Below are positions 25,012 to 31,222 of a stretch of 64,000 bases of DNA, in pieces. The notes beneath the pieces were generated by a model that made no database searches, was not told the origin of the DNA, and saw only the letters and a program-made list of their open reading frames with translations. Numbering within the stretch: position 1 is the stretch's first letter; each line of letters opens with the position of its first letter. The DNA comes from Chloroflexota bacterium (GTDB lineage Bacteria > Chloroflexota > UBA11872), in contig JAPOVQ010000035.1 in the NCBI GenBank assembly GCA_026708035.1, forward strand, positions 62,001 to 126,000, written 5' to 3'. The position numbers and the translations under genes are program-made.

Positions 25012-26076
25012 TCATGCGGCCGGGGCGCGCAGCTCGTGCAGCACGTCCCGCACGATGTGAGGGTTCACGTGATGCCCCGGACTGGCCGCGCCGATGCGCT
25101 CGGCCAGCACCCACTGGATGCGTCCGCCGCGTACTTTCTTGTCCCGCTGCATGGCCTGCAGCAGGTCGTCGGGCGCGGAATTCATGTAGGACTGCGACAA
25201 GCCGACATGCCGCAGCAACTCGTGTTGTCGCACGGCGTCGGCTGCAGCCAGCGCGCCCACGCGGACGCTGATGGCCGCGGCTCCCCGCATGCCGATGGCC
25301 ACCGCCTCGCCGTGCCGATAGGCGCCGTAGCCGCACACGGTCTCCAGCGCGTGGGCGATGGTGTGGCCGTAGTTGAGCACGGCGCGCGCGCCGCGGTCGT
25401 GCGGGTCCTCGTCGACGATCCGCGCCTTCCAGCGCACGCAGCGCGTCACCAGTTCCTCGAGCAAGGCCGTGTCGTCAAGCTCGTCGACGCGCCGCTCGAT
25501 CAGCTCGAACATGCCGGCGTCGAAGATCATGGCGGTCTTGATCACCTCGGCGTAGTCGGCCACGAGCTGCGCGTGCGGCAGGGTGGCCAGCAGGTCGGGA
25601 TCGATCACGCTCTGCCGCGCCGGGTAGAAGGCGCCGACGAGGTTCTTGCCCGCCGCCAGGTCCACCGCGACCTTTCCGCCGACGCTGCTGTCGATCTGGG
25701 CCAGCAGCGTGGTCGGCACCTGGATCAACGGAACCCCGCGCAGGTAGGCGGCGGCCACGAATCCGGCCAGGTCGCCCACCACGCCGCCGCCGAGCGCGAT
25801 GATCGGGTCGCCGCGTTCGGCGCCTTGCTCCGCCAACCAGGCCCAGAGCTCGTTGGCCGCGGCGACCGATTTGCTGGATTCTCCGGGCGGCACGGCGCGC
25901 GACTCGACCGTGACGCCGGCCTGCGTCAGCTCCCCGACGATGCGCTGACCGTGCAGCTGCATCACGGTGGTGTCGGCGATCACCCACGCCCGCGGCGGCA
26001 GGCCCTCTTGGTCCAGCACCTGCGCCAACCGGCCGCTGGCGCCGCGCTCGATCTGGATGTAGTCCAGCGTGTCCAT
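25012..26076 (-). CDS. aroB: 3-dehydroquinate synthase
   Basis: 354 aa. It converts DAHP to 3-dehydroquinate, the second shikimate step, using NAD and a divalent metal. Seen: GGGVVGDLAGFVAAAYLRGVP for NAD, VPTTLLAQIDSSVGGKVAVDL, and metal ligands Glu in YAEVIKTAMI, His in NYGHTIAHALE and His in YRHGEAVAIGM. Its ATG shares one base with the aroK stop (TGATG). Confidence 0.96.
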   Translation of the reverse strand: MDTLDYIQIERGASGRLAQVLDQEGLPPRAWVIADTTVMQLHGQRIVGELTQAGVTVESRAVPPGESSKSVAAANELWAWLAEQGAERGDPIIALGGGVVGDLAGFVAAAYLRGVPLIQVPTTLLAQIDSSVGGKVAVDLAAGKNLVGAFYPARQSVIDPDLLATLPHAQLVADYAEVIKTAMIFDAGMFELIERRVDELDDTALLEELVTRCVRWKARIVDEDPHDRGARAVLNYGHTIAHALETVCGYGAYRHGEAVAIGMRGAAAISVRVGALAAADAVRQHELLRHVGLSQSYMNSAPDDLLQAMQRDKKVRGGRIQWVLAERIGAASPGHHVNPHIVRDVLHELRAPAA

Positions 26077-26624
26077 CAGGCCGGGCGGCAGGCCATGGCG
26101 GCGCGCACCTCGGCGGCCAGCGCCTCGGCAACTTCGGCCACCGAGCGTTGGTCCGTGTCGACATGCACGTGGGCCTGCCGATAGGCGGCCTCACGCGCCG
26201 CGATCAAGTCGGCGAGGCGGCGTCGCGGATCGTCGCCGAGCATGGGCCGGGGCTCGTCCGCCAGACCGTCCGCCAGGCGGGCGGCGGCGACGTCCGGGCT
26301 GACTTGCAGCCACGCGACGAGCCCGCGCGCGAGCAGCCGCTCGCGGGTCGTTGCGTCGGCCATGGCGCCGCCGCCGAGCGCCCCGGCGGCGCGCGGTTGC
26401 GCGCTCAATTCGTCCACCACGTCCCGCTCCAGGGCGCGAAAGGCCGGCTCGCCGTCCTGGGCGAAGATCTGCGGGATCGACCGGCCGTCGCGCGCCGCGA
26501 TTTCGACGTCGCTGTCCCAGGCCGTCCAGCCGAGTCGAGTCGCGGCGGCCCTGGCGACCGACGATTTGCCGGCGCCGCTCATGCCCACGAGGAACACTCG
26601 GTCCACGGGGCGGCGACCGCTCAC
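26076..26624 (-). CDS. aroK: shikimate kinase
   Basis: 182 aa. P-loop VGMSGAGKSSVARAAA, shikimate-binding Asp in WDSDVEIA, FAQDGEPAFRALERDVV (E-x-x-F-R), the GALGGGA loop and the lid region EPRPMLGDDPRRRL are present. The start is GTG 26624, overlapping aroC by 4 bases (GTGA). The longer open frame to 26780 is a shadow of aroC. Confidence 0.93.
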   Translation of the reverse strand: MSGRRPVDRVFLVGMSGAGKSSVARAAATRLGWTAWDSDVEIAARDGRSIPQIFAQDGEPAFRALERDVVDELSAQPRAAGALGGGAMADATTRERLLARGLVAWLQVSPDVAAARLADGLADEPRPMLGDDPRRRLADLIAAREAAYRQAHVHVDTDQRSVAEVAEALAAEVRAAMACRPA

Positions 26625-27805
26625 GTGGCGGCGGGAGCGGCCCGCGAGGCCGCCCGCTGCGCGCGCACCGCGGCCGCGATGTCCTCCATGTTGTCGCCGC
26701 CGAACTTTTCGAGCAGCGCATCGGCGAGCACCAGCGCCACCATGGCCTCGCCGATCACGCCTGCGGCCGGCACCACGCACACGTCCGAGCGTTCGAAGTG
26801 AGCCTGAGTGCGCTCGAGGGTCTTGACGTCGACGGTTTGCAGCGGGGTGCGCATGGTCGAGATGGGCTTGAGGGCGCCACGCACGATCAGCGGCTGCCCG
26901 TTGGTCATGCCGCCTTCGGTGCCCCCGGCGCGGTTGCTCAGGCGGGTCCAGCCGCGCGCCTGGGTGCGGTCGATCTCATCGTGCACGTCGTGGCCCCGGC
27001 GCGCGGTGTTGTCGAAGGCGCTGCCGATCTCCACGCCCTTCACGGCGTTGATGCTCAGGATGGCTTGCGCCAGGCGCCCGTCGAGCTTGCGATCCCAGTG
27101 CACGTGGCTGCCCAGGCCGATGGGCAGGCCCCACGCCACGACCTCGAAGACGCCGCCAAGAGTCGAGCCGGCTTCCCGCGCCGCGTCGATGGCTTCGATC
27201 ATGGCGTCGGCGCGCTGCGCGGTGACGGCGCGCACCGGCGAGGTCTCGACCTCGTCCCAGGGCCAGGTTTCCGGCTGCAGCGGGTCGAGATCGGGCGTGT
27301 CGTCCACCGGACCGATTCGGGCCGCCCGGCTGCGAATCTCAATGCCGGCGGCCGCCAGCAGCCGCCGCGCCACCGCGCCGGCGGCCACCCGCGAGGTGGT
27401 CTCGCGCGCGCTGGAGCGCTCCAAGATATTGCGCAGGTCGTCGGTGCCGTACTTGACCATACCCGCCAGGTCCGCGTGCCCGGGTCGGGGCTTGGTGACC
27501 GGCGGAATCTCCCCGTCGATCGGCTCCACCGACATCTTCTCTTGCCAGTTGGCCCAGTCGCGGTTCTCAAGCAGCATGGCCACCGGACTGCCCAGGGTGC
27601 GTCCGTGGCGCACGCCGCTGCGGATGGTGACCTGATCGCGCTCGATCTGCATGCGCCCACCGCGACCGTAGCCGCCCTGCCGGCGCGCCAAGTCGGGATT
27701 GATGTCGTCCGCCGTGAGGACAAGACCGAACGGCAGCCCCTCGACGATGACGGTCAGTCCGGGGCCGTGCGACTCCCCGGCGGTGAGAAAACGAAGGCGT
27801 CCCAT
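26621..27805 (-). CDS. aroC: chorismate synthase
   Basis: 394 aa. This FMN-dependent enzyme removes phosphate from EPSP to give chorismate. The N-terminus MGRLRFLTAGESHGPGL and the segments GYGRGGRMQIERD, GRTLGSPVAMLLENRDW, RPGHADLAG, SSARETTSRVAAGAVAR and NRAGGTEGGMTNGQPL are all signatures of the family. It starts 4 bases after the aroE stop. Confidence 0.97.
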   Translation of the reverse strand: MGRLRFLTAGESHGPGLTVIVEGLPFGLVLTADDINPDLARRQGGYGRGGRMQIERDQVTIRSGVRHGRTLGSPVAMLLENRDWANWQEKMSVEPIDGEIPPVTKPRPGHADLAGMVKYGTDDLRNILERSSARETTSRVAAGAVARRLLAAAGIEIRSRAARIGPVDDTPDLDPLQPETWPWDEVETSPVRAVTAQRADAMIEAIDAAREAGSTLGGVFEVVAWGLPIGLGSHVHWDRKLDGRLAQAILSINAVKGVEIGSAFDNTARRGHDVHDEIDRTQARGWTRLSNRAGGTEGGMTNGQPLIVRGALKPISTMRTPLQTVDVKTLERTQAHFERSDVCVVPAAGVIGEAMVALVLADALLEKFGGDNMEDIAAAVRAQRAASRAAPAAT

Positions 27806-27809
27806 GGTG

Positions 27810-28673
27810 CTAGGCCCCTGGCGCGGCCAGCGCGTGGCGGGCGGCTTCCATCATAGTGCCCACGGGCGCCGGCCGACCGAGCCATCGCTCGAGGCTGGCG
27901 GCGCCCTGCAAGACCAGCATTTCCAGACCGCCGAGCACGCGGCAGCCGATGGACCGCGCATGCGCCAGCAGGGGCGTTTCCGCGGGACGGTACACGATGT
28001 CGCAAACGAAGAGTTCATCGTGCAGCCACGACAGCGGCAGTGGGGCGGCCAGCGGGTCCGGGCCTCCAGCCATGCCGAGGCTCGTGGCGTTCACGAGCAA
28101 CGCAGCCGTGCGCAGCTCGCGTTCTAGCGCCGGATCGTCGAGGCCGCTGCTGGTGACGCCAAGCGGCTGACCGCCGAGGGCCGCCGCCAGCGCGTCGGCG
28201 CGGTCGCGGCGGCGGTTGGCCAACGTGAGGTGCGCGACGCCTAGGTCGGCGAGCGCCCAGGCCACGGCACGGCCCGCGCCGCCGGCGCCGACCAGTACGG
28301 CGCGGGCACCGGACGGATCGAAGCTGCCGTGCTCAGTGAGCGCGCGCGCAAAGCCTTCCACGTCGGTGTTGTCGCCGATGAGCCGGCCGTCGCGCGCGTC
28401 CACCGTGTTGACCGCGTCCAGCCGCTCGGCGGCTGCGGTGCGGGAATCGACCAGCTCGGCCACGCGCAGCTTGTGCGGAATGGTGACGTTGAGCCCGCGC
28501 CACGCGCCTCGGCGCGCCTCGAACAGCCGTGATTCCAGAGCGTCGGGCGTCGTCGGGAGGGCGCGATAGACGGCCGGCACGCCCAGGGCGTCGAGCGCCG
28601 CCTGCTGAAACGCCGGGGACAGCGTGTGGCCGAGCGGCCAGCCGATCACGCCGAAGCGGAGGTCGCGGCTCAT
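27810..28673 (-). CDS. aroE: shikimate 5-dehydrogenase
   Basis: 287 aa. It reduces 3-dehydroshikimate with NADPH. Seen: FGVIGWPLGHTLSPAFQQAAL (substrate Ser), the catalytic Lys in NVTIPHKLRV, Asn/Asp in VNTVDARDGRLIGDNTDVEGF, and the NADP site VLVGAGGAGRAVAWAL. ATG 28673 overlaps the aroA stop in ATGA. Confidence 0.95.
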   Translation of the reverse strand: MSRDLRFGVIGWPLGHTLSPAFQQAALDALGVPAVYRALPTTPDALESRLFEARRGAWRGLNVTIPHKLRVAELVDSRTAAAERLDAVNTVDARDGRLIGDNTDVEGFARALTEHGSFDPSGARAVLVGAGGAGRAVAWALADLGVAHLTLANRRRDRADALAAALGGQPLGVTSSGLDDPALERELRTAALLVNATSLGMAGGPDPLAAPLPLSWLHDELFVCDIVYRPAETPLLAHARSIGCRVLGGLEMLVLQGAASLERWLGRPAPVGTMMEAARHALAAPGA

Positions 28674-29962
28674 TCGCTGAGGGTCGCCAGGTCGTCCCAG
28701 AAGCCGGGATAGGACACGGCAGCGCTGTCGGCGTCGTCGATGGCGACGGGTCCGTCACCGGTCAATGCGGCGACCGCCGCCAGCATGGCGATGCGGTGAT
28801 CGCCGGCGGCGTCGGCGCGGCCGCCGCCGACGCGTTGGTCCCCGGCGGTCGCGAAGCCGTCGGGCTGCTCGTCAACCTCGACGCCCAGCGCGGCCAACGC
28901 GGCGGCCGTCGTGCGCAGCCGGTTGGACTCCTTGGCGGCCAGCTCGGCGGCGTCACGCAGCCGGGATTCGCCGTCGGCGTGCACGGCCAGCAAGGCGACC
29001 AATGGCGCCTCGTCGATGAGTCGCGGCACGAGGTCGCCGCCCACATCCGAGGCGCGCAACGACGATGATCGGGCCACGACGGTCCCGACGGGCTCCGGCT
29101 CATGCCGCTCGACCTCGACGGTCACGTCGGCGTCCATGGCGCGCAGCACGTCGAGCAGGCCGGTTCGGAGAGGATTCAGGCCGACGTCGCGAATGGTGAT
29201 GGCCGCGTCGGGGTGCACCACGGCCGCCGCGATCCAGAATGCCGCCGACGAAAAGTCGCCGGGAACGTCCAGGTCCAGCGGCGCGAGGGCCGCGTTGGGT
29301 TCGCACGTGACGCTGGCATCGGTGGTCGAAACGGACGCGCCCTGGCCGCGCAGCAGCCGCTCGGTGTGGTCGCGTGACACCGTCGGCTGCTCGAGTGAGG
29401 TCGGCCCCTCGGCTTGCAGCGCGGCGAGCAGCACGGCCGATTTCACTTGCGCGCTGGCCACCGGCGACCGCAGATGGGCTCCATGCAACCGGGCCGGCGC
29501 GAAGGCCATGGGGGCGCGGGTGCCCTCGGCGCGGGCATGGATGTGCGCGCCCATCGCGCGCAGCGGCTCGACCACCCGCCCCATCGGCCGGCGGCGCAGC
29601 GAATCGTCGCCGGTGACGAACGAGTGGAAGGGCCGGCCCGCCAGGATGCCGCTGACGAGGCGCAGCGTGGTGCCGCTGTTGCCGCACGGCAGCACGTCGG
29701 CCGGCTCGCGCAGGCCCGAAAACCCGCGGCCGCGAACCACCAGCTCGTCGCCGTGCACGGCGTGATCCACGCCCAGGGCCGCGACGACGCCGGCCGAGGC
29801 CTCGATATCGGCGCCGAAGCCGGGCCTTCGAACGCGCGAGTCCCCGGACCCGATCGCGCCGAGCAGATAGGCCCGATGGGTGATGGACTTGTCGCCCGCC
29901 ACGCGCAGCTCGCCGCGCAGCCGGCGCGCCGGCTGGACGACGCGGGCGCGCGCCGGCGGCAT
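28670..29962 (-). CDS. aroA: 3-phosphoshikimate 1-carboxyvinyltransferase (EPSP synthase)
   Basis: 430 aa. The family signatures are clear: VAGDKSITHRAYLLGAIG, LPCGNSGTTLRLVSGIL, TGDDSLRRRPMGRVVEPL, the SAQVKSAVLLAAL loop, and RLIDEAPLVALLAVHADG with the catalytic Asp. It transfers enolpyruvyl from PEP to shikimate-3-phosphate. ATG 29962 shares one base with the aroG stop. The longer frame to 30172 is antisense-like and is rejected. Confidence 0.96.
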   Translation of the reverse strand: MPPARARVVQPARRLRGELRVAGDKSITHRAYLLGAIGSGDSRVRRPGFGADIEASAGVVAALGVDHAVHGDELVVRGRGFSGLREPADVLPCGNSGTTLRLVSGILAGRPFHSFVTGDDSLRRRPMGRVVEPLRAMGAHIHARAEGTRAPMAFAPARLHGAHLRSPVASAQVKSAVLLAALQAEGPTSLEQPTVSRDHTERLLRGQGASVSTTDASVTCEPNAALAPLDLDVPGDFSSAAFWIAAAVVHPDAAITIRDVGLNPLRTGLLDVLRAMDADVTVEVERHEPEPVGTVVARSSSLRASDVGGDLVPRLIDEAPLVALLAVHADGESRLRDAAELAAKESNRLRTTAAALAALGVEVDEQPDGFATAGDQRVGGGRADAAGDHRIAMLAAVAALTGDGPVAIDDADSAAVSYPGFWDDLATLSE

Positions 29963-30999
29963 CAGGTCACCGCGGCGCCGGCGGCCGGCACCGGTCGCCC
30001 CAGCGCCTGCGCCATCGGCACGAGTTTCTGCATGAGCTGCGAGAAATGCTCCAGGCTGAGGCTCTGCGCGCCGTCGATGAGCGCCGTGTCCGGCGAGGGG
30101 TGCACCTCCAGCAGCACGGCGTCGGCGCCGGCGGCGACCGCCGCCAGGGTCATGGATTCCACCATATGCCACTTGCCGGTGCCCTGCGACGGATCGACGA
30201 CGACCGGCAAGTGCGTGGAGCGGCGCAGCAGCGGCACGGCGTTCAGATCGAGCGTGAATCGCGATTCGGTTTCAAAGGTCCGGATGCCGCGCTCGCAGAG
30301 CAGCACATTGGGATTGCCCGCCGCCAAAATGTACTCGGCGCACATGATCCACTCTTCAATGGTGTTGCCCATCCCCCGCTTGAGCAGCACCGGGGTATCC
30401 AGACGCCCCACCTCGTTGAGCAGGGGGTAGTTCTGCGCGTTGCGCGTGCCGATCTGCAAGATATCGGCGATGTCGGCGATTTCTGCCACCTGCCGCGGGT
30501 CGATCACCTCCGTAACGACGGGCAAGCCGGTCACCGCTTTGGCTTCCTCGAGCAGCCGCAGTCCCTCGGCTCCCATCCCCTGGAAGCTGTAGGGCGAGCT
30601 GCGCGGCTTGAACGCGCCGCCGCGAAGAATCTGCGCGCCTTGCGCCGCCACGTGCTCGGCCGTGGTGATGAGTTGATCGCGGCTCTCGACCGTGCACGGA
30701 CCCGCCATGACGGCGACCGAGCCGTCGCCGATCGTGACGCCGCCGACGGTGATGGCGGTGCGCGCCTGCCCGTTGCGCCGCGCCGCCAGCTTGTAGGGCG
30801 CGCCGACCGGCATGGCGGTCTCGACCCCCGGCATGCGCTGGACCTGCTGCAGTAGCTCGGGCGGCCGGTGGCCGATTACCGCGATCACGGTCTTCTCGAC
30901 GCCGTAGAGCATCCGCGTCTCCAATCCCTCGGCGCGGATGCGTCCGGCGACGGCTTCGATCTGGTCGCTGGAGGCCTGTTTGGCCAGGACGACAATCAT
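29962..30999 (-). CDS. aroG: DAHP synthase (3-deoxy-7-phosphoheptulonate synthase) with N-terminal regulatory domain
   Basis: 345 aa. Residues 1-65 (MIVVLAKQASSDQIEAVAGRI...VIAVIG) form the ferredoxin-like/ACT-type domain known from the Tyr/Phe-inhibited Thermotoga enzyme. The barrel follows: VMAGPCTVESRDQL, LRGGAFKPRSSPYSFQG, LQIGTRNAQNYPLLNEVG, LLKRGMGNTIEEW and VVVDPSQGTGKWHMV. It catalyses the committed step from PEP and erythrose 4-phosphate. AAGGAGA lies 9 bases before ATG 30999. It heads the aro operon behind a candidate attenuator. Confidence 0.96.
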   Translation of the reverse strand: MIVVLAKQASSDQIEAVAGRIRAEGLETRMLYGVEKTVIAVIGHRPPELLQQVQRMPGVETAMPVGAPYKLAARRNGQARTAITVGGVTIGDGSVAVMAGPCTVESRDQLITTAEHVAAQGAQILRGGAFKPRSSPYSFQGMGAEGLRLLEEAKAVTGLPVVTEVIDPRQVAEIADIADILQIGTRNAQNYPLLNEVGRLDTPVLLKRGMGNTIEEWIMCAEYILAAGNPNVLLCERGIRTFETESRFTLDLNAVPLLRRSTHLPVVVDPSQGTGKWHMVESMTLAAVAAGADAVLLEVHPSPDTALIDGAQSLSLEHFSQLMQKLVPMAQALGRPVPAAGAAVT

Positions 31000-31032
31000 G
31001 GGTAGGTTCTCCTTTGGGGGAATCCGGGCAAC

Positions 31033-31058
31033 AAAAAAGCAGAGGCTTTGACCTCTGC
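31033..31058 (-). terminator. intrinsic terminator in the aro leader
   Basis: Read on the minus strand: stem GCAGAGG (31058-31052), loop TCAAAG, stem CCTCTGC (31045-31039), then six T (31038-31033). The seven-pair stem is perfect, and the outer GGCA/TTGCC bases can extend it around the T tract. It stands between the aro promoter and aroG, 34 bases before the start codon, so it must be conditionally bypassed. Confidence 0.82.
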
Positions 31059-31059
31059 T

Positions 31060-31115
31060 GCCGGCGCGTTCTCGATCGTGGGAGCTACATGGCGTGCACA
31101 CCCAGCCGCGCCGGC
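31060..31115 (-). promoter_or_regulatory. candidate antiterminator pairing in the aro leader
   Basis: GCCGGCGCG (31115-31107), inside the leader ORF just after its last Phe codon, is exactly complementary to CGCGCCGGC (31068-31060), immediately 5' of the terminator stem. The helix can continue past one mismatch to pair most of the terminator's 5' arm (three Watson-Crick pairs, a mismatch, an A-U and two G-U), so it would compete with the terminator. That this switch operates is inference. Confidence 0.5.
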
Positions 31116-31162
31116 CGCATAAACGCGAAGGTATACCGCTCGACCCGGCTGAAGCTTGGCAT
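31085..31162 (-). CDS. candidate Phe/Tyr-rich leader peptide of the aro operon
   Basis: A 25-codon ORF begins about 25 bases after the predicted transcription start and ends 27 bases before the terminator hairpin. Aromatic residues are Phe4, Tyr10, Phe12 and Phe14, three of them within five codons. Starvation for Phe or Tyr charging would stall ribosomes just before the segment that can pair with the terminator flank. The weakness is that AGGGAG lies 15 bases from the ATG, too far for a good ribosome-binding site. Confidence 0.5.
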   Translation of the reverse strand: MPSFSRVERYTFAFMRPARLGVHAM

Positions 31163-31193
31163 TCGTGAGCCCGCGCGCTCCCTGTACGCCGAG

Positions 31194-31222
31194 AGTGTGC
31201 GCGCGGTGCGTGGATTCGTCAA
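31194..31222 (-). promoter_or_regulatory. aro operon promoter
   Basis: TTGACG (31222-31217), a 17-base spacer and CACACT (31199-31194) on the minus strand. The predicted start is near 31187. This gives a roughly 190-base leader before aroG, holding the short aromatic ORF and the terminator. Confidence 0.6.

Follow-up and report, generated by a model that had tools for sequence, protein, structure and literature searches.

The window, a 64,000-nt stretch of a Chloroflexota bacterium contig (JAPOVQ010000035.1), carries on its minus strand an aro cluster of six shikimate genes at positions 25012–30999. The first gene, aroG (29962–30999, ATG at 30999), encodes a DAHP synthase (PF00793, 1.8e-74) with the ferredoxin-like N-terminal domain noted in the initial annotation (PF18152, 2.5e-16). 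Behind it, at 25012–29971, Pfam identifies aroA (EPSP synthase), aroE, aroC, aroK, and aroB, and the genes are presumed to be co-transcribed as an operon. The description of this shikimate cluster as complete is wrong: the six genes are present, and searches of the genome turned up neither a type I nor a type II 3-dehydroquinate dehydratase. The enzyme was likewise not found in any of the 19 genomes of the window's family (G000–G018). Elsewhere, f2 and f5 have the type I enzyme and most f3 and f4 genomes have type II. In the window's family, this step is a candidate for a missing or unknown enzyme.

Upstream of aroG (31222–30999, minus strand) lies a leader whose proposed elements (promoter, ORF, 9-base arms, and terminator at 31033–31222, followed by the aroG ribosome-binding site) are all present on the minus strand, base for base. 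The -35 box TTGACG (31217–31222) is the same in every family-1 leader examined, and the -10 box CACACT (31194–31199), which follows after a 17-nt spacer, is kept in both genera of the window's family. This promoter predicts a transcription start at about 31187. The leader ORF of 25 codons, MPSFSRVERYTFAFMRPARLGVHAM, runs from the ATG at 31162 to the TAG at 31085 (31085–31162); its frame, aromatic codons, and stop are kept in the order. Its control codons are Tyr10 (TAT, 31133–31135), kept in five congeners and conserved as Tyr elsewhere in the order, Phe12 (TTC, 31127–31129), aromatic across all congeners and Tyr in one, and Phe14 (TTT, 31121–31123), invariant in the order. These three codons stand as aromatic, while Phe4, which had been counted with them, does not, being Ile in three congeners.

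Eight nucleotides 3′ of Phe14 begins segment 2 (GCCGGCGCG, 31107–31115), the 5′ strand of the putative antiterminator hairpin (hairpin 2:3). It is the exact 9-base reverse complement of segment 3 (CGCGCCGGC, 31060–31068), the 3′ strand, such that 31115–31107 pairs with 31068–31060. The inner part of the hairpin (31069–31106), which is assigned from the fold, holds the leader stop codon (31087–31085) and is less conserved than the outer helix. Segment 3 abuts the intrinsic terminator AGCAGAGGTCAAAGCCTCTGCTTTTTT (31059–31033), a 9-bp stem, AGCAGAGG(T)/(G)CCTCTGCT, followed by six T; the terminator is kept in the order. The aroG ribosome-binding site AAGGAG (31009–31014) lies nine bases 5′ of the gene. 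Against chance, the fold of the terminator alone gives a z of -4.2 and that of hairpin plus terminator -3.5. The 9-bp helix alone is modest in the window, since it is reached by 14/500 shuffles, and a second leader copy with a meaningful score was not found in the window's own genome. The decisive evidence for the attenuator in the window is comparative and does not come from the window alone.

Distribution and covariation of the leader

A search at the DNA level recovered the leader from five congeners (Chloroflexota metagenome-assembled genomes) and through the order. A covariance model built from 18 leaders matches 21/24 genomes of the order. The leader is present in 21/21 order genomes with detectable aroG, and the three genomes without the leader are also without a detectable aroG. 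At a threshold of E 0.01, the model matches 113/400 Chloroflexota genomes and 60/224 genera, nearly all upstream of DAHP synthase; the matches in L220 and L225 (a tRNA gene) were excluded as false and that in L133 as doubtful. DAHP synthase was detected in 360/400 of the Chloroflexota genomes, hence the device is common and not universal; in families such as f16 and f22, the leader was not found in the upstream regions sampled. Most of the genomes compared are metagenome assemblies, and their transcription starts are predicted. The covariance-model search is biased toward the terminator type from which the model was built, and additional families, recovered independently of the model, combine unrelated terminator stems with the same layout. 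An extra function of the invariant GCAGAGG terminator stem was considered and rejected. Its invariance is mostly an effect of the search model, because f4, f5, f11, f56, and f68 have other stems.

The alignment of related leaders, proposed in the initial annotation as a check, shows that the aromatic codons are kept, that both arms co-vary, and that the terminator stays put, which supports the reading as a ribosome-mediated Phe/Tyr attenuator. Within the order, the arms barely vary, too little for a decisive covariation test, and the case for covariation therefore rests on deeper relatives. Segment 2 reads GCCGGCGCG in the window's genus, GCCGGCTCG or GGCCGGTGTA in f2, CCCGGCATGACC in f24, CTCCAGCATGATGGTGGG in f21, about CCGGCGTTGCTGG in f48, CCCGGTGTG in f3, GCGGCATGAAGGAGC in f68, and GCCGGAGGG in f4, and segment 3 is complementary to it in each of these lineages. 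All told, about a dozen lineages have a rewritten segment 2 and a segment 3 that has changed in step, which argues that the helix is under selection. GC, CG, AU, and UA each occur at most helix positions (45 genera), and for many family representatives the helix is reached by 0/500 shuffles.

The leader frame has at least three Phe/Tyr/Trp in six codons in 46/47 genera and two in the remaining genus, and the other two frames never have more than two. In most genera of the phylum, 7–8 nt separate the last control codon from segment 2. Directly before the stop, the leader peptides read FYYWFSPPA in f21 (large genomes), WYYFYFTPPALLVGQSVLIR in f48, LFYFPRPA in f24, WYYYFSRPV in f3, and YYTFTGPARPAGLPM in f2; no NCBIfam names were found for them. 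The same structure is also present upstream of tyrS (with Tyr codons), pheS, asd (with Thr codons), and a DAHP synthase gene without the ferredoxin-like domain. The leader codons generally follow the regulated gene.

Leaders with Tyr codons and the same architecture occur in L132, L134, and L136 (HGCAYIGPAR.., and, each up to the stop, GDYPYLIPV and GGYSYRIPV, respectively). According to Pfam, the gene behind those in L132 and L136 is tyrosyl-tRNA synthetase. In f48, a Thr-codon leader ending in MTTTPAGVRAGGAT before the stop precedes asd (aspartate-semialdehyde dehydrogenase) at L215:1507-1608 and L218:1333-1434, with an overlapping antiterminator. The f48 pheS leaders L167 and L182 carry SHHVHFSPPA, with one Phe among His codons.

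With respect to translation, the promoter was chosen blind to the ORF, and the distance of ATG/GTG to the predicted start was then measured. An in-frame ATG/GTG lies 0–7 nt from the predicted transcription start in 27/45 genera, compared with 3/45 for the other two frames together. These leaderless start positions suggest that the leader is translated. In most lineages outside f21, the leader ORF looks leaderless, which would account for the missing ribosome-binding site there. The missing site had been listed as a weak point of the ORF in the window; it is a general feature of the family and goes with leaderless ORFs in most lineages, an account from which the window's genus is excepted, with the distal ATG only and a 25-nt 5′ untranslated region that has no ribosome-binding site. 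In genus g2, some species combine a start codon lying 2 nt from the transcription start with a second in-frame ATG 21 nt further; others have only one of the two.

Hairpin geometry and a proposed model of the switch

An intrinsic terminator is present between the leader ORF and the structural gene, and the helix near the control codons, which a ribosome at the stop would prevent, is present, conserved, and compensated. The gap between helix and terminator was computed from folds; the terminator finder made no call for L204 and returned a truncated stem for L209 and E. coli phe. The helix ends 0–4 nt 5′ of the terminator stem in 42/46 genera, and in the minimum-energy fold it pairs no terminator-arm base in 37/46. 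The abutment is kept in lineages with unrelated terminators (f4, f5, and f68) and also in f62. Hairpin 2:3 and the terminator can coexist in 44/46 genera, and simple competition for pairing thus fails to explain antitermination. In other words, exclusion of the terminator by the antiterminator through shared bases, a defining step of the textbook attenuator, is not found, and the Chloroflexota device is filed as a variant that works like a ribosome-mediated attenuator without base-sharing exclusion.

Collectively, the leader frame, control codons, compensated helix, terminator, abutting geometry, and gene context, all read directly from the sequence, make it very probable that the aro operon is under a ribosome-mediated transcription attenuator sensing charged tRNA-Phe and tRNA-Tyr. 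From these features, we infer leader translation, stalling, and the direction of the switch; the most tentative step is the blocking of termination by an abutting hairpin. With ample Phe and Tyr, the ribosome would reach the leader stop codon within hairpin 2:3 and separate segments 2 and 3. The terminator would then form, and transcription would end before aroG. The stop codon is positioned in the loop of hairpin 2:3 (window's family, f2, and f48) or inside segment 2 (f21, f24, and f3), and a terminating ribosome would therefore hold the strands apart. That the pairing segment lies 5′ of the stop had been considered another weak point. The arrangement is found in all lineages, and a terminating ribosome would still keep the helix open.

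Under a shortage of Phe or Tyr, the ribosome would stall at Tyr10, Phe12, or Phe14, leaving segment 2 free or mostly free to pair with segment 3, although a ribosome held at Phe14 would overlie part of segment 2. Hairpin 2:3, flush with the base of the terminator stem, would prevent completion of the terminator, and transcription would continue into aroG and its downstream genes. Hairpin 2:3 would in effect be the antiterminator, because starvation should induce the regulated genes and stalling frees segment 2. The reverse polarity, with hairpin 2:3 promoting termination on starvation, was rejected, as it would be senseless for aroG, tyrS, and pheS. With respect to how a flush hairpin might act, we prefer a steric reading in which a rigid helix set right at the stem base would block formation of the last terminator pairs in the polymerase exit channel. 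Taken to the level of the phylum, these leaders might constitute a group of attenuators whose antiterminator leaves the terminator its bases: a flush hairpin, permitted to form by ribosome stalling, would keep the terminator from completing by geometry alone; this proposal is plausible, if at somewhat less than even chances.

A classical attenuator with mutually exclusive hairpins would require the antiterminator to extend into the terminator 5′ arm and compete for its bases. Such an extension had been proposed for the window and is possible there (TGC/GCA past a G.A mismatch, at 31116–31119); some lineages share 1–4 nt of the terminator arm, and the asd leader antiterminator overlaps it by five bases. 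However, the full 3-bp extension is confined to the window species and a single congener and shrinks to 2 bp in the other congeners. It is not conserved; the phylum-wide pattern is a helix abutting the terminator, and the counts given above (no arm base paired in 37 of the 46 genera, coexistence in 44) speak against competition. The same computation applied to E. coli gives a different picture: the antiterminators of trp and thr take 5–9 terminator-arm bases, and that of phe takes all arm bases detected in a truncated stem when stalling is placed at the earlier Phe codons. Results for the his control of E. coli are mixed, with 0 or 9 arm bases taken depending on the stall codon, and is not counted as support. 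We therefore regard the classical arrangement as unlikely, even if it deserves consideration. It is rather improbable that hairpin 2:3 acts by bringing the stalled ribosome beside the polymerase, where the ribosome itself would block the terminator. The short, fixed distances (7–8 nt from codon to helix and 0–4 nt from helix to terminator) are compatible with this idea, but such spacing would also follow if segment 2 simply had to lie clear of a ribosome stalled upstream.

Two further explanations dispense with the attenuator altogether. The marginal helix in the window and an ORF with no ribosome-binding site could reflect a chance layout, that is, a constitutive terminator behind a spurious, untranslated ORF. 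The conservation of the leader within the order, together with its recurrence with compensated arms in 60 genera, contradicts this explanation, which we consider very improbable. A structured leader with a terminator upstream of a biosynthetic gene could also point to another RNA sensor, such as a riboswitch or T-box, controlling the terminator. Here, however, the conserved part is a coding frame with codons that match the downstream gene. With the Rfam covariance models, only tRNAs scored above the gathering score and a relaxed threshold gave chance matches, with no riboswitch or T-box among them. There is hardly any likelihood left for such a sensor.

Relation to known attenuators

The closest known system is the aroR-aroF attenuator of Corynebacterium glutamicum, in which, as the work of Neshat et al. 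2014 is presented in PMC11802643 (leader in PMC4046766), a Phe-Tyr-Phe leader precedes the DAHP synthase gene and a ribosome stalled under Phe limitation results in read-through. At the level of these accounts, the two share an aromatic leader peptide upstream of a DAHP synthase gene and differ in phylum and in that the leaders of Chloroflexota often contain Trp and a larger number of aromatic codons. The E. coli pheL-pheA, trpL, and thrL systems likewise combine a leader peptide with control codons, an antiterminator, an intrinsic terminator, and a biosynthetic operon. In contrast to the Chloroflexota helix, which in most genera ends just before the terminator stem, theirs takes bases of the terminator 5′ arm. 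As cited in PMC4046766 (Morbach et al. 2000), the C. glutamicum ilvBNC leader has no ribosome-binding site and is nevertheless translated. To the extent of that citation, it resembles the Chloroflexota leaders that have no such site and differs in its amino acids and phylum.

By the account of Naville and Gautheret 2010 (PMC2965389), leader-peptide systems had until then been known only from Proteobacteria and Actinobacteria; they added Bacilli, where His leader peptides precede hisS/hisZ in Bacillus. These are likewise attenuators outside the Proteobacteria and Actinobacteria, with another gene, amino acid, and phylum. In the literature searched, no report of leader-peptide control in Chloroflexota was found; the wide survey of Lopatovskaya et al. 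2010 could contain some. The kind of system is known; a family spanning the phylum and hairpins that abut are what is new. Probable leader-peptide control over the making of aromatic amino acids, absent from Rfam, is documented here through much of a large and mostly uncultured phylum, and many of the leaders appear leaderless. Should the abutting hairpins prove as important for function as their conservation implies, antitermination would be possible without shared base pairing. Searches for attenuators would also be affected, as methods that require overlapping hairpins would miss abutting ones.

Aromatic leader control may extend beyond Chloroflexota. In the Gemmatimonadaceae genome L034, an ORF ending in YAYYYYFATPTPGRSWRRTR before its stop and a terminator are present upstream of DAHP synthase.
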